Below, one piece after another: positions 34,539 through 40,149 of a DNA stretch of 64,000 bases. The notes under the pieces were generated by a model. That model made no database searches. It was not told where the DNA came from and saw only the letters and a program-made list of their open reading frames with translations. The number at the start of each line of letters is the position of its first letter. The stretch's first letter is position 1. Origin of the DNA: Alphaproteobacteria bacterium (GTDB taxonomy: Bacteria; Pseudomonadota; Alphaproteobacteria; Rhodospirillales; Magnetospirillaceae); contig JAJPHO010000174.1 of the NCBI GenBank assembly GCA_021325215.1, forward strand, positions 1 to 64,000, read 5' to 3'. The position numbers were made by a program, and so were the translations under genes.

Positions 34539-35300
34539 ATGCGGAACCAGGCACAGCGTCGCGCAGCAGGTTATTGGGTCATGATCCAGCTGATGGCTGG
34601 TGCTATCGCCCTGCCCATATCCTTGTCCGCGCGGGCGGACGCCCCCTCGATAATCTTCATGGTGCCCGCCAACGAATCCATGCCTCTGGCCGGATACGAA
34701 AACGGACATCTGGCAGCCGGCCTGTACAAGGATCTCGGCGAGACCATCGCCGGGCGGCTGGGCCTTCGGGCCGATTACGTCGTGGTGCCGTCGGCGCGGC
34801 TCGGCGAGGGAATGGCGGCGGGACATGCCGACGCTTTATGCTATGTGCAGCCCGCCTGGCTCGAAGGCGCCTTCGATTGGAGCGTGCCGCTGCTCGACGA
34901 TGCCGAACTGGTCATCGCCGAAGCCGGCGCGCCTCCGGTCAGACGGATCACGGACCTTGCCGATCAGCGCGTCGGCACGGTCATCAGATATCATTATCCC
35001 GAGCTTCAAAATCAGCTCGGCTCCCATTTCCTGCGCGACGATTCGCAGGATATGGGGATGAGTATCCGCCGTGTCGCGGCCGGCAGGCTCAAATATGCCG
35101 TCGTCGAAAAGCTGCTCTATGATTATTTGACGCGCGGCGCGCCCGATTCGCGGGTGCGGGTCGATATGAGCTATGCTCCCATCACCAGGATGTGCGCGTT
35201 TTCGCGCAGGTCGGGAATCCCCTTCCAGCGCTTCGACGCGGCTGTGAAGGCGGTGGTGGCCGACGGCACGATGGAACGGATACTCGAATCCTATCGGTGA
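34539..35300 (+). CDS. periplasmic solute-binding protein, family 3-like, orphan
   Basis: A 253-residue protein from ATG 34539, with GCCGCAAG upstream. The signal peptide extends to about residue 33 (LPISLSARADA). The mature part has the lobe pattern AGLYKDLGETIAGRLGLRAD, YVQPAWLEGAFDWSVPL, a hinge VGTVIRYHYPELQNQLG and the last segment FQRFDAAVKAVVADG. No transporter genes accompany it. It is divergent from metG and 50 bases ahead of the PspA-like operon, beyond that operon's own promoter. Ligand unknown. Confidence 0.78.
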   Translation: MRNQAQRRAAGYWVMIQLMAGAIALPISLSARADAPSIIFMVPANESMPLAGYENGHLAAGLYKDLGETIAGRLGLRADYVVVPSARLGEGMAAGHADALCYVQPAWLEGAFDWSVPLLDDAELVIAEAGAPPVRRITDLADQRVGTVIRYHYPELQNQLGSHFLRDDSQDMGMSIRRVAAGRLKYAVVEKLLYDYLTRGAPDSRVRVDMSYAPITRMCAFSRRSGIPFQRFDAAVKAVVADGTMERILESYR

Positions 35301-35304
35301 CGAT

Positions 35305-35350
35305 GTACACTAGTTGACATTGGTCGGGGCCTGCGTACACTAGTGTACCA
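35305..35350 (+). promoter_or_regulatory. promoter with two palindromic operators for the PspA-like operon
   Basis: GTACACTAGTGTAC (35335-35348) is a perfect 14-base palindrome; GTACACTAGTTGAC (35305-35318) matches it at 12 of 14 positions, exactly 30 bases earlier (three helical turns). TTGACA (35314-35319) and TACACT (35336-35341) fit -35 and -10 boxes with 16-base spacing and overlap both operators. A start about seven bases after the -10 box would fall at the ATG 35351, implying a leaderless transcript under operator control. Confidence 0.65.
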
Positions 35351-36358
35351 ATGACGGAAGATCAGAAGCTATCGCGACAGGCCCTTTATAATCGCCGCAA
35401 ACGTCTGGAAAGCGGCGGGGCGGTCTATGTCGTGCCGAGGGACAAGGCGGCGATGGATGTCGCCGTCGAGGAAGCCGGCATAAGTCAGGCCGAATGGCTG
35501 CGCGATGCCATCGATGAGAAAATCGATCGTGAAATTCCCGAATTGATGACGTGGAGAGCCACGTCGGGTGGCAAAAGGAGATCCCCCATGTTCGAGTTCT
35601 TTGCCGCATTCGGCCTGATCAAGACCAAGAAGATCGCCAAGGAATTGGCCGGCCTGTTGGCCATGACCGACAAGGACGCCGCCGGCCAGGCGGATCTGGC
35701 GGTCAAGGAGAAGACCCTGGATGCGGCCGGCAAGCTGCTGATGGAGCTGCGTCAGTCGCATGCCCACGAGGTCGGCGAGTTCGAGAAGCTGGACACGCTG
35801 TACAAGCAATATCTCGCCGCCGCCGAAAAGCTGCAGGCGCGGATGCAGGACGCCGCCACCTCCGACGCCGATAAGGGCCAGATCGAAGCCGGCCTCAACG
35901 AGCTGGTCGACAAGCTGGAGAAGATGGCGCCCGAGCTGGAACAGCATCGCCGCGACGTCGATGATTCCGCCGGCCTGCTCAAGGAAGCGACCGAGGCTTA
36001 CGAGGAAAAGGCGGCCGATCTCAAGACCGCCAAGATCCAGCTCGACGAGGCGCAGCGGTCGCTGACCCGTGCCCAGATCGACGCCCAGCGGGCCCGCGAA
36101 CAGGCCGAGAAGGCCGCCCGCATCGCCGGACTGCGATCGGATGATCAGGCCAGCGGCGTCAATGTCGCCTTGTCGGCCATGAACGATCAGGCCGCCAAGC
36201 TGCGCGCCAATGCCGAGGCCAACCGCCTCAAGGCTCAGGTGCTGGCCAAGACCCCGGCGGCGCCCGAGAACCAGTTCGTCGCCGAGGCCCTGGCCCAGGC
36301 GTCCGACAATAAACCGGCTCAGTCGGTGCTCGACCGTCTGGCCGCTCTCAAGAAGTAA
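35351..36358 (+). CDS. PspA/IM30 (YjfJ-like) coiled-coil protein with N-terminal DNA-binding-like extension
   Basis: A 335-residue protein from ATG 35351. Residues 1-60 (LSRQALYNRRKRLESGG, then AVEEAGISQAEWLRDAIDEK) look like a small ribbon-helix-helix or related DNA-binding segment. From residue 80 (MFEFFAAFGLIKTKKIAKEL) the sequence turns into a long heptad-rich coiled coil (about 105-290) and ends ENQFVAEALAQASD with AQSVLDRLAALKK, as in YjfJ-type PspA/IM30 members. A strong AAAAGGAG lies seven bases before an internal ATG at 35588, so a 256-residue form without the extension is likely made too. Downstream DUF1190, ATP-grasp and DUF350 genes are the partners seen in the E. coli yjfIJKLMC cluster. 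The role is probably membrane stress or envelope maintenance. Confidence 0.75.
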   Translation: MTEDQKLSRQALYNRRKRLESGGAVYVVPRDKAAMDVAVEEAGISQAEWLRDAIDEKIDREIPELMTWRATSGGKRRSPMFEFFAAFGLIKTKKIAKELAGLLAMTDKDAAGQADLAVKEKTLDAAGKLLMELRQSHAHEVGEFEKLDTLYKQYLAAAEKLQARMQDAATSDADKGQIEAGLNELVDKLEKMAPELEQHRRDVDDSAGLLKEATEAYEEKAADLKTAKIQLDEAQRSLTRAQIDAQRAREQAEKAARIAGLRSDDQASGVNVALSAMNDQAAKLRANAEANRLKAQVLAKTPAAPENQFVAEALAQASDNKPAQSVLDRLAALKK

Positions 36359-36363
36359 CGATA

Positions 36364-36945
36364 ATGACCCGCTCCGGCCGGATGGCCGCACTGGCGGCGG
36401 CGGTTTCCGCCGCCGCCCTCCTCTCGGCCTGCGACGACAAGCAGCCGCAGCGCCATTCGCAGGTCGGCACGCCGCAGGGCCAGCAGCAGCAGGTGGTCTA
36501 TCGCAATCTCGACGCCTGCCTGGCGCAGGCGACCGACATGACGATGGTCCAGGCCTGCCGCGACGGTTATGCCCAGGCCATGGAGAAAATGGCCGAGGCG
36601 CCGAAATACGAGACCCAGGCGACCTGCGAGGACGTCTACGGCCCCGGCAATTGCGTGCCGCGCGGCAGCGTGGTGCATGAGGGCGGCGGCTCCTTCATTC
36701 CTTTCATGATGGGCTACATGATCGGCGGCGGCTTCGGCCGCTCGACGGCCTATTACCCCGTCTATGTGGATCGCGGCGGCACCACTTTCGCCGGCGGCTA
36801 TGGCGGCGGCGCCAACACTGTCGTCAGCACGCCGTCCTGGCAGGGCGGCGCGCCGACGGCGGTCCGTTCCTCTTCTTCCTCGGTGGTCCGCGGCGGCTTC
36901 GGCAGCACCGCGATGGCCAGCGCCCACGCCACCTCCGGAGGCTAA
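36364..36945 (+). CDS. DUF1190 (YgiB/YjfM-like) lipoprotein
   Basis: A 193-residue protein five bases after the PspA-like gene. Signal peptide with lipobox LLSAC (Cys about 23). DUF1190 features are VYRNLDACLAQATDMTMVQA, CRDGYAQAMEKMAEAPKY, QATCEDVYGPGNCVPRG with paired cysteines, then a Gly/Ser-rich tail (FIPFMMGYMIGGGFG, SSSSSVVRGGFG). In E. coli YgiB/YjfM are outer-membrane-linked proteins next to the ATP-grasp genes ygiC/yjfC, matching the order here. Function is unresolved. Confidence 0.88.
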   Translation: MTRSGRMAALAAAVSAAALLSACDDKQPQRHSQVGTPQGQQQQVVYRNLDACLAQATDMTMVQACRDGYAQAMEKMAEAPKYETQATCEDVYGPGNCVPRGSVVHEGGGSFIPFMMGYMIGGGFGRSTAYYPVYVDRGGTTFAGGYGGGANTVVSTPSWQGGAPTAVRSSSSSVVRGGFGSTAMASAHATSGG

Positions 36946-36951
36946 GGTTCA

Positions 36952-38115
36952 ATGCAGCGCGAACTCATCACCGCCCGTCCCGACTGGCAGTCGGCGGTCG
37001 AGGCGGTCGGCTTCGATTTTCACACCTTCGACGCCGCGCCCTATTGGTGCGAGGACAATTTCTGGGCTTTCACCTCGGCCGAGATCGACGGGTTGGAGCA
37101 GGTCGGCAACGAGCTGCACAAGATGTGCATGCAGGCCGTCCAGCAGGTCATCGACGACCGCCGCCTGGCCCTGTTCGGCATTTCCGGCCTGGCCGAGGAT
37201 CTGGTCAAGCACAGCTGGGAGCGGCGTGATCCGCATCTCTATGGCCGCGTCGACCTGGCCTATGACGGCTCCGGCCCGCCCAAACTGCTGGAGTACAACG
37301 CCGATACTCCGACCTCGCTATTCGAGGCGGCGATCGTGCAATGGTATTGGAAACAGGCCTGCTATCCGCAGATGGACCAGTTCAACAGCCTGGAGGAAGG
37401 GCTGATCGAACGGTTCCGCGCGCTGATGCGCGGCATTCCCAGCCAGGACCCGCGCCGGCACCTGCATCTGTCCTGCGTGATGCCCAATGTCGAGGATGAG
37501 GGAAACCTCAAATATATCGAGGCCTGCGCCATCGATGCCGGCTTCACCACCACCCGCATCGATATCGCCGATATCGGCTGGGACAAGGGCCGCGAGAAGT
37601 TCGTCGATCTAGACGAGAAAGTGATCGCCCGCCTGTTCAAGCTCTACCCCTGGGAATGGATGGTGAAGGAAAGCTTCGGCTTCAACATCCCCATCGCCGG
37701 CACCCAATTCATCGAGCCGGCCTGGAAGATGGTGCTGTCGAACAAGGCCATCCTGGCGCAGCTGTGGGAGATGTTCCCGCAGCATGATTACCTGCTGCCC
37801 GCCTCTTTCGAGCGCGAGAAGATCATGGCGCAATCGCCGCTGGGCGTGGTGCGCAAGGCCCTGCTCGGCCGCGAAGGCGCCAACATCACCATCTACGACG
37901 CCCAGGGCAACGTTATGGAAAGCCAGGACGGCGATTACGGCGCCGAAGGCTATGTCTGGCAGGCCCGCGCGCCGCTGGCCCGTGCCGGCGCCCGGGGGTC
38001 CGCGGTGCTGGGCGTCTGGATCATCGGCGACGAGGCGCGCGGCATGGGCATCCGCGAGGCCGAGGGCCTGATCACCACCGATATGTGCCATTTCGTTCCC
38101 CATGTATTTTCTTGA
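36952..38115 (+). CDS. glutathionylspermidine synthase family ATP-grasp protein (YgiC/YjfC-like)
   Basis: A 387-residue cytoplasmic protein six bases after the DUF1190 gene. It has the GspS C-terminal domain: FHTFDAAPYWCEDNFWAFT, VDLAYDGSGPPKLLEYNADT (metal-binding Glu/Asn/Asp), SLFEAAIVQWYW, and IEPAWKMVLSNKAILAQLWE, ending in GEYxW-like EGYVWQARAPLARA. Family members form amide bonds between glycine and an amine using ATP; the E. coli homologues YgiC and YjfC lack the amidase domain, as does this one. Its true peptide and amine substrates are unknown. It is part of the PspA-DUF1190-ATP-grasp-DUF350 operon. Confidence 0.92.
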   Translation: MQRELITARPDWQSAVEAVGFDFHTFDAAPYWCEDNFWAFTSAEIDGLEQVGNELHKMCMQAVQQVIDDRRLALFGISGLAEDLVKHSWERRDPHLYGRVDLAYDGSGPPKLLEYNADTPTSLFEAAIVQWYWKQACYPQMDQFNSLEEGLIERFRALMRGIPSQDPRRHLHLSCVMPNVEDEGNLKYIEACAIDAGFTTTRIDIADIGWDKGREKFVDLDEKVIARLFKLYPWEWMVKESFGFNIPIAGTQFIEPAWKMVLSNKAILAQLWEMFPQHDYLLPASFEREKIMAQSPLGVVRKALLGREGANITIYDAQGNVMESQDGDYGAEGYVWQARAPLARAGARGSAVLGVWIIGDEARGMGIREAEGLITTDMCHFVPHVFS

Positions 38116-38133
38116 ACGAGGATTTGAGACATC

Positions 38134-38544
38134 ATGATTTCAGCCTTGATTCCCCTGGATAATCTTATTTCCTTCGCCGCTCATTTCGCGGTCGCTTCGG
38201 TCATGCTGGTGATCTTCGCGGCGCTGTGGCTCAAGGCCACGCCGTTCGACGATATCGGCCTGATCCGCGAGGGTAATGCCGCCTCGGCCATCTCGTTTGC
38301 CGGCGCGCTGATCGGCTTCGCCATTCCGGTCGCCGGCGTGGTGCGGGCCTCGTCCTCGCTGTGGGAGGTGCTGCCCTGGAGCGCCATCGCCCTGGTGGCT
38401 CAGCTGTTGGGATTGTGGGTGGTTACCAGAATCATGCACGGTCTGGTCAAGCCGATCGAGCGCGGCGAGACGGCGGCCGGCATCTTCGTGGCCGGCGTCG
38501 CCGTCACCATCGGCATCCTCAACGCCGCCTGCATGGGGGGCTGA
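38134..38544 (+). CDS. DUF350 (YjfL-like) inner-membrane protein
   Basis: A 136-residue protein 18 bases after the ATP-grasp gene. It has four hydrophobic helices in two similar halves: FAAHFAVASVMLVIFAALWL, SAISFAGALIGFAIPVAGV, WSAIALVAQLLGLWVV and GIFVAGVAVTIGILNAAC, with a charged loop GLVKPIERGETAAG, the DUF350 pattern. DUF350 proteins are consistently found with ATP-grasp/GspS-like proteins. This closes the operon. Confidence 0.9.
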   Translation: MISALIPLDNLISFAAHFAVASVMLVIFAALWLKATPFDDIGLIREGNAASAISFAGALIGFAIPVAGVVRASSSLWEVLPWSAIALVAQLLGLWVVTRIMHGLVKPIERGETAAGIFVAGVAVTIGILNAACMGG

Positions 38545-38643
38545 AACCAAGACAACAGGCCGTTACCATTTAACTACACGATATAACCCGGTTTCCCGGC
38601 GGCCTTCTCTACCATCAGGAGGAGGTCACGGGAGACGGGAGAG

Positions 38644-40149
38644 TTGGACAGTCTATCGTCGCATGCCGCGGCGCGGGTCGAGGAATTGCAGCGCGTCCTG
38701 GCCGGGGACCCGTTCCAGGCGGAAACCCATTTCGTCCTCTCCATGCTCCACACCGAGCTGACGAAGCTCGAGGCCGCGACCCTCGATCTGAAGCGGACCA
38801 TCGCCCTGGCACCCTTTGCCGCCTCGGCCTATAACAATCTCGCCAATCTGTTCGAACGCGCCGGCGATTTCGCCGAGGCCTATGGTCCGAGCCGCCGGGC
38901 GGTGCAGCTGGTACCCGCCGATCCCCTGTTCCAGTCCAACTTCGCCTCGTTCAGCTCCAAGGTCGACCACGCCGCCGATGCGGTGAACCATTATAGGGCG
39001 TCGCTGGCCCTCGCCCCCGCCGCGGTCAAGGCGAACAAGGATTTCGCCATCATCCTCGGTGAATTGGGACGCGGCGCCGAGGCGCGCGAGATCTTCCTGC
39101 GCGCGTCGGCCCTGATGCCCGACGCCGTCGACCTGGTCCGCAATTGCGTCGAGCTGGAGACCGTGACGCCGGATCACCCGGCGCGCGCGGCTTTGACGCG
39201 GCTGGCCGGGCGCCAGGATCGCATGAGCCTGCGCGATCGGATCGAGCTGAATTTCGCCCTCGGCAAAAGCCATGACGATCTCGGCGAAACCGCTGCCGCC
39301 TTCGCCTGCTGGACCAGGGCCAATCTGATGCTGCGCCAGGTGGTGCCCTATGACGAGGCGCAGGCGATGCGCAAATTCGACGCGGTCACCGGGCAATTCC
39401 CGGCGGCTGCCTTCGAAGAGGCGCAAGGTCGGGGCTTCGCCGGCGCCCGGCCCGTCTTCATCGTCGGCATGCCCCGCTGCGGCAGCACGCTGATCGAACA
39501 GATCCTGGCCAGCCATCCGGAGATAAATGCGGGCGGCGAGATCAATATTCTGGAAAGACTGATCGACCGCCATGGCGCCGAGGGCTATCGGGCGGTCGGC
39601 GAAGCCTATATGGCCCGATTGGCGCGCCTGCATCCCGGCGCCGTCCGCGTCACCGACAAGATGCTGGGCAATTATCTGCGCGTCGGCTTCATCGCCGCGG
39701 CGCTGCCCGATGCCAGGATCGTCCATGTCCGCCGCGATCCGCTCGACACCTGTCTGTCCAACTATTCGCGGCTGTTCGTGGAGAACCATCCCTACGCGTC
39801 GGATCTCGGGGAACTGGGCCGCTATTACCGCCGTTATGCCGAGCTGATGGCTCATTGGCGTGCAGCCCTGCCCGACGGGCGCATGATCGAGGTGGATTAC
39901 GAGGCGGTGATCGGCGATCTGCCGGGCCAGGTCCGCCGCCTGCTCGATTTTCTCGATCTGCGGTGGGATGAACGCTGCCTGGCCTTCCATGAGACCGAAC
40001 GTTTCGTGCGGACCGCCAGCCAGTGCCAGGTGCGCGAACCGCTCTATGACCGGGCGGTCGGGCGCTGGCATCGTTATGCCGGCCATGTCGGCGCGCTGAT
40101 CGAGGGGCTTGGGCCGGAGGCCGGCAGGCATTATATGTTCGGCGCATAG
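38644..40149 (+). CDS. TPR-sulfotransferase family protein
   Basis: A protein of up to 501 residues beginning at TTG 38644, with GGGAGA about six bases upstream; no in-frame ATG fits better without cutting the first TPR. Residues 1-190 form TPR-like helix pairs (ASAYNNLANLFERAGDFAEA, KDFAIILGELGRGAEAREIF). The sulfotransferase domain starts near 275 with the 5'-PSB loop FIVGMPRCGSTLIEQILASH, and the 3'-PB segment IVHVRRDPLDTCLSNYSRLF follows. Such enzymes transfer sulfate from PAPS to an unknown acceptor. It is the first gene after the DUF350 operon, separated by 99 bases that hold a weak hairpin. A paralogue lies at 60411-62231. Confidence 0.87.
   Translation: MDSLSSHAAARVEELQRVLAGDPFQAETHFVLSMLHTELTKLEAATLDLKRTIALAPFAASAYNNLANLFERAGDFAEAYGPSRRAVQLVPADPLFQSNFASFSSKVDHAADAVNHYRASLALAPAAVKANKDFAIILGELGRGAEAREIFLRASALMPDAVDLVRNCVELETVTPDHPARAALTRLAGRQDRMSLRDRIELNFALGKSHDDLGETAAAFACWTRANLMLRQVVPYDEAQAMRKFDAVTGQFPAAAFEEAQGRGFAGARPVFIVGMPRCGSTLIEQILASHPEINAGGEINILERLIDRHGAEGYRAVGEAYMARLARLHPGAVRVTDKMLGNYLRVGFIAAALPDARIVHVRRDPLDTCLSNYSRLFVENHPYASDLGELGRYYRRYAELMAHWRAALPDGRMIEVDYEAVIGDLPGQVRRLLDFLDLRWDERCLAFHETERFVRTASQCQVREPLYDRAVGRWHRYAGHVGALIEGLGPEAGRHYMFGA

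Follow-up and report, generated by a model that had tools for sequence, protein, structure and literature searches.

An RHH (ribbon-helix-helix) autorepressor appears to stand in front of a Yjf-type operon, joined to the coiled-coil body of the operon's first protein, with that body probably also made independently; we hold this reading at about an even chance. It concerns the ORF at 35351-36358 (+; 335 aa), which lies in the analyzed window, a stretch of 64,000 nucleotides, and is open throughout, including across the junction between head and body. The case for a probable autorepressor lies in operator-like sites that are unique in 4.88 Mb, their overlap with a promoter, a coding head, RHH relatives of that head, and a strong Shine-Dalgarno (SD) sequence. 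Counting against it are the weak domain scores of the head, its atypical DNA-face residues, and the occurrence of the same head and operator in no relative. The features are listed in Table 1.

Table 1. Features of the putative RHH-body gene, its promoter region, and the downstream operon
Feature	Position	Strand	Remarks
Upstream operator-like site GTACACTAGTTGAC	35305-35318	.	2 mismatches to perfect palindrome; overlaps -35
-35 hexamer TTGACA	35314-35319	+	
Perfect 14-bp palindrome GTACACTAGTGTAC	35335-35348	.	Covers -10 and predicted transcription start
-10 hexamer TACACT	35336-35341	+	16-nt spacer from TTGACA
RHH-like head, residues 1-61	35351-35533	+	Codon statistics, weak RHH-type matches, small RHH relatives, model and fold search
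Junction, residues 62-79	35534-35587	+	Codon usage unlike coding; 3' part serves as upstream leader of the body
Shine-Dalgarno AGGAGA	35576-35581	+	6 nt ahead of ATG 35588; -8.9 kcal/mol with anti-SD
Coiled-coil body, residues 80-335	35588-36358	+	Conserved unnamed family, likely own start
DUF1190 lipoprotein (YjfM type)	36364-36945	+	E=2.2e-24
Glutathionylspermidine-synthase-like ATP-grasp ligase (YjfC type)	36952-38115	+	E=3.3e-139
DUF350 membrane protein (YjfL type)	38134-38544	+	E=2.4e-33

The sequence-only reading had seen a DNA-binding-like unit at the start of this protein and had proposed predicting its structure. Codon statistics derived from neighboring genes mark residues 1-61 as coding in this frame, and no off-frame gene window scored as high. 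Searches of domain libraries (Pfam/NCBIfam) returned sub-threshold matches for the head, several of them RHH-type, namely NikA-like, RHH_1, TraJ, and the RepA2/CopB-like PRK13702. Scores fell under the Pfam gathering cut-offs (13.5 bits vs 20.5 for RHH_1 and 15.5 vs 27 for NikA-like), a test that has little power here, as the small RHH relatives of the head mostly score low too. An AlphaFold2 model of the head, built with its small relatives, placed helices at residues 29-42 and 46-72, with a pLDDT of ~87 over residues 31-50; the strand (~24-28) was unassigned in the monomer model. Foldseek matches to the head were led almost entirely by RHH proteins (VapB26, CopASO, MazE6, CopG, Arc, and NikA), the best with an E value of 0.45. 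The RHH-like character of the head is thus supported by several weak lines, namely the domain matches, the relatives, and the model and fold search, with the reservation that domain scores stay below their cut-offs, that the strand is unassigned, and that no fold match is better than E 0.45. We consider it very probable that the head is an RHH domain. In our alignment (A2), the head places small or hydrophobic residues (G23/V25/V27 or A24/Y26/V28) at strand positions occupied by Q/T/Y in the antitoxins. These strand positions of RHH proteins usually read DNA, and with such atypical outward residues base reading by the head may therefore be weak or unusual.

Searches of 317 genomes from the order and 385 from the class, and of plasmids, phages, and IMG/VR, returned no homologue of the head. 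In 398 genomes from the phylum, the top-scoring genuine ORFs encoded proteins of just 65-113 aa, for example MGQVTIYLDDKTEAEM; in most cases the next ORF follows directly, starts MYVLDTNTLIYYFKGMG, and resembles a PIN-domain (VapC) toxin. The nearest independent relatives of the head include small RHH antitoxins. The best-scoring relative is the C-terminal RHH-like domain of an ORF of 299 aa encoded by a different genome of the class (L020, 1426-1659), with 46% identity to the head over 41 residues. Type II RHH/VapB antitoxins (L021-L027 and L029) share with the head the small RHH domain and a 'VTIYLDDKTEAEM..AAGISKSKW..EKAG.EWP'-like sequence, and they carry A/T-rich tandem or palindromic repeats just 5' of their start, as found here at 35305-35348, though the operator sequence differs. 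Whereas those antitoxins precede a putative PIN-type toxin ORF, the head here precedes a coiled-coil Yjf-operon protein, and no toxin gene lies beside it: downstream are the body, DUF1190, GspS, and DUF350. Several candidate relatives were rejected. The single locus (L015) from the genome_contigs scan for the head, a pattern search that reaches only close relatives, matched antisense to an acetate-kinase-like ORF, and the weak matches L011, L016, and L028, together with the TAG-broken L012 and L014, fell either within long, unrelated ORFs or in frames that are broken.

Both operator-like sites sit in the 50-bp gap between ORF 35351-36358 and the upstream gene, whose last part scored 25.8 bits against SBP_bac_3, just below the Pfam cut-off of 26.4. 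The palindrome GTACACTAGTGTAC ends 2 nt ahead of ATG 35351. Two operators 30 bases apart had been proposed; the spacing (30 bp, start to start) and the perfect palindrome stand, but the upstream site GTACACTAGTTGAC is a 10-bp direct repeat, GTACACTAGT (one arm plus the center), and not a full second palindrome. When the whole window was shuffled, 2 of 100 shuffles also gave two palindrome matches at ≤3 mismatches, which makes the pattern by itself modestly significant within the window. Across the genome (4.88 Mb), the 10-mer GTACACTAGT occurs only in these two copies and in the second palindrome's complement, and at ≤1 mismatch the 14-mer has its sole genome copy at 35335-35348. The overlap of the sites with a promoter-like TTGACA/TACACT pair, whose predicted start falls at the ATG, was confirmed. 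TTGACA-16-TACACT, with 10 of 12 consensus positions, was the only sigma70-like site in a scan of 35000-39000; as chance alone would yield about 0.8 such sites over the 4 kb scanned, the match carries weight by its position. Judged by spacing, transcription would start at ~35347-35350, 1-4 nt ahead of the ATG, and the RNA would therefore be almost leaderless.

The palindromes could alternatively serve a different regulator, with the head a helical extension that does not bind DNA. The atypical DNA-face residues and sub-threshold domain scores would fit this, but sites unique to this promoter are expected of an autoregulator rather than of a global one, and the fold matches are nearly all RHH; we regard such an arrangement as very unlikely. 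A separate search of IMG/VR for the operator-plus-ATG pattern gave 11 stretches, none of which opened an RHH protein. Several IMG/VR contigs bearing GTACACTAGTGTAC (L036, L037, L039, and L042) have further GTAC-containing repeats nearby, for example GTACATCTGTACACTAGTGTAC, which are possibly phage promoter/operator arrays unrelated to the window.

At the junction between head and body, the codons of residues 62-79 score lower than 99.9% of the 18-codon windows taken from neighboring genes. Six bases 5' of ATG 35588, AAAAGGAGA is a strong SD match that reaches -8.9 kcal/mol, a value attained by 2.6% of random positions, and several body relatives have a GGAG/GAGG-type element just 5' of the body start. 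Independent initiation at Met80 (ATG 35588) is therefore likely, to judge from these sequence features. A random stretch of the same length and composition is open about half the time, so the open junction is weak evidence for a selected fusion. In the +1 frame, tandem stops directly follow the RHH homology, and a frameshift, real or assembly-made, could therefore have created the fusion, which is known from one assembly only, a draft of 195 contigs. These same observations, along with the non-coding-like junction codons, would suit an annotation or assembly artefact, in which a separate short RHH gene has its stop hidden by a frameshift and the operator and autorepressor are still real. Against this, in-frame similarity to the 299-aa ORF of L020 reaches about residue 67, and we consider an artefact unlikely.

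In the arrangement that we favor, an RHH autorepressor gene that has a promoter and operator of its own would have been inserted ahead of a Yjf-type operon. The RHH unit would be translated from the almost leaderless ATG, 2 nt past the palindrome, and a predicted RHH dimer would probably bind both GTACACTAGT sites, over the -35, the -10, and the transcription start, repressing its own operon. The head would be joined in frame to the body through about 14-18 codons resembling a former intergenic region. With the ribosome-binding site (RBS) and ATG 35588 of the body retained, two products are probable, an RHH-body fusion and a free body, and if the two kinds of subunit assembled together, membrane-coupled control of the sort proposed in the sequence-only reading might follow.

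Homologues of the body begin at residues corresponding to 76-80 of ORF 35351-36358 and lack the head; of the 385 genomes of the class, 20 have them. DUF350 lies just upstream in 19 of the 26 body loci examined, with DUF1190 and GspS following in a subset; Azospirillum ramasamyi has the arrangement DUF2491-DUF350-'hypothetical protein', the last being the body relative. The members (L053, L055, L056, and L060-L078, with the 'hypothetical protein' of Azospirillum ramasamyi at NZ_CP029833.1 353312-354082) form an unnamed conserved coiled-coil family, which apparently replaces YjfJ/PspA beside DUF350 in Yjf-type operons. The body had previously been taken for PspA/IM30, an assignment that we could not uphold by sequence. 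Neither the body nor its eight aligned homologues matched PF04012 (PspA_IM30), whereas E. coli YjfJ (5e-58) and E. coli PspA (9e-49) matched strongly. Direct BLAST of the body against E. coli YjfJ showed no similarity, and HHalign against PspA gave probabilities of 0.7-1.9%, with PspA profiles that contained just 2-3 sequences. In the predicted structure, the middle helices have a pLDDT of 90-95, and Foldseek ranked Vipp1/PspA chains first (E 0.01-0.04, probability 0.98-1.00), closely followed by coiled coils of YscO, IpaB, and SMC. The body is therefore not PspA by sequence, and its resemblance to PspA/Vipp1 (ESCRT-III superfamily) is confined to the predicted fold: the modeled helix order is alike, there is no sequence or profile similarity, and other coiled coils are nearly equal.

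The resemblance in fold bears on whether ORF 35351-36358 could be a single dedicated fusion, at once membrane-stress effector and direct repressor, which would be freed from its operator when the body polymerizes on the membrane. A precedent is PutA, which has an N-terminal RHH on an effector, represses its own operon, and can move to the membrane (PMC5293562); the frame open across the junction and the leading Vipp1/PspA membrane-remodeling matches of the body model would also agree with such a switch. On the other hand, the junction is non-coding-like and holds the body's RBS, so that an RHH autorepressor ahead of a self-starting body explains the data equally well; in addition, the body fails PspA_IM30, and the fusion was in no other genome searched. 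We give a PutA-like single fusion a small chance of being right. The fuller version, one protein combining an RHH repressor with an ESCRT-III/PspA-like membrane-remodeling polymer, whose assembly on damaged membrane strips away the repressor to make an envelope-stress switch without PspF, seems quite unlikely. PutA itself is a proline-oxidizing flavoenzyme unrelated to the body, and ORF 35351-36358 had no Pfam match to the proline dehydrogenase or P5C dehydrogenase domains.

The surrounding genes agree with the earlier proposal of a stress/polyamine operon of Yjf type, as the GspS-like ligase, DUF350, and DUF1190 occur together. The PF04012 member of such operons is absent, with the unnamed coiled-coil body instead. 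The order here is RHH-body, DUF1190, GspS, DUF350, whereas relatives have DUF350 first. None of the 26 body loci examined showed an RHH gene next to the body, and a scan of eight related-operon loci found no copy of the palindrome. The sequence-only reading had treated an absence of the palindrome from related operons as refuting; palindrome and head are indeed both absent from those examined, which marks the arrangement as specific to this lineage on present sequence comparisons, and autoregulation here is not thereby disproved. A canonical PspA is encoded elsewhere in the same genome (L059, 2610-4515; G000:C27:74500-83000), beside a divergent sigma54-activator ORF that we call PspF-like from its sequence and position.

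Compared with E. coli yjfIJKLMC and the third group of Ravi et al. 2024 (PMC11237479), the operon shares the cluster of DUF1190, GspS-like ligase, and DUF350. It differs from the Yjf/PspA operons in that no YjfI/YjfJ (PF04012) was recognized and the body comes from another coiled-coil family, and in having an RHH at the front and fused, with DUF350 last instead of first. Since Ravi et al. 2024 (PMC11237479) report RHH genes at the end of certain related PspA operons with DUF350, an RHH regulator has been described in such a setting before; what is new is the fusion at the front. Neither RHH autorepressors nor Yjf-type membrane/polyamine operons are new in themselves. An RHH joined to the PspA-position protein of a Yjf-type operon was present in no other genome searched, and our literature search found no description of one. 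If real, the arrangement would offer a simple one-gene route to how the poorly understood Yjf-type operons switch on, and it points to a coiled-coil family, as yet unnamed, in the place of PspA beside DUF350. Finally, we note a CRISPR-like array ~0.3 kb downstream of the GspS gene in one related operon (L056, 8101-10519; G021:C455), in which a repeat that includes CTTTCCCCGGCAGAAATGCCGGGGCCTCATTGAAGC recurs about 30 times at ~74-bp spacing.
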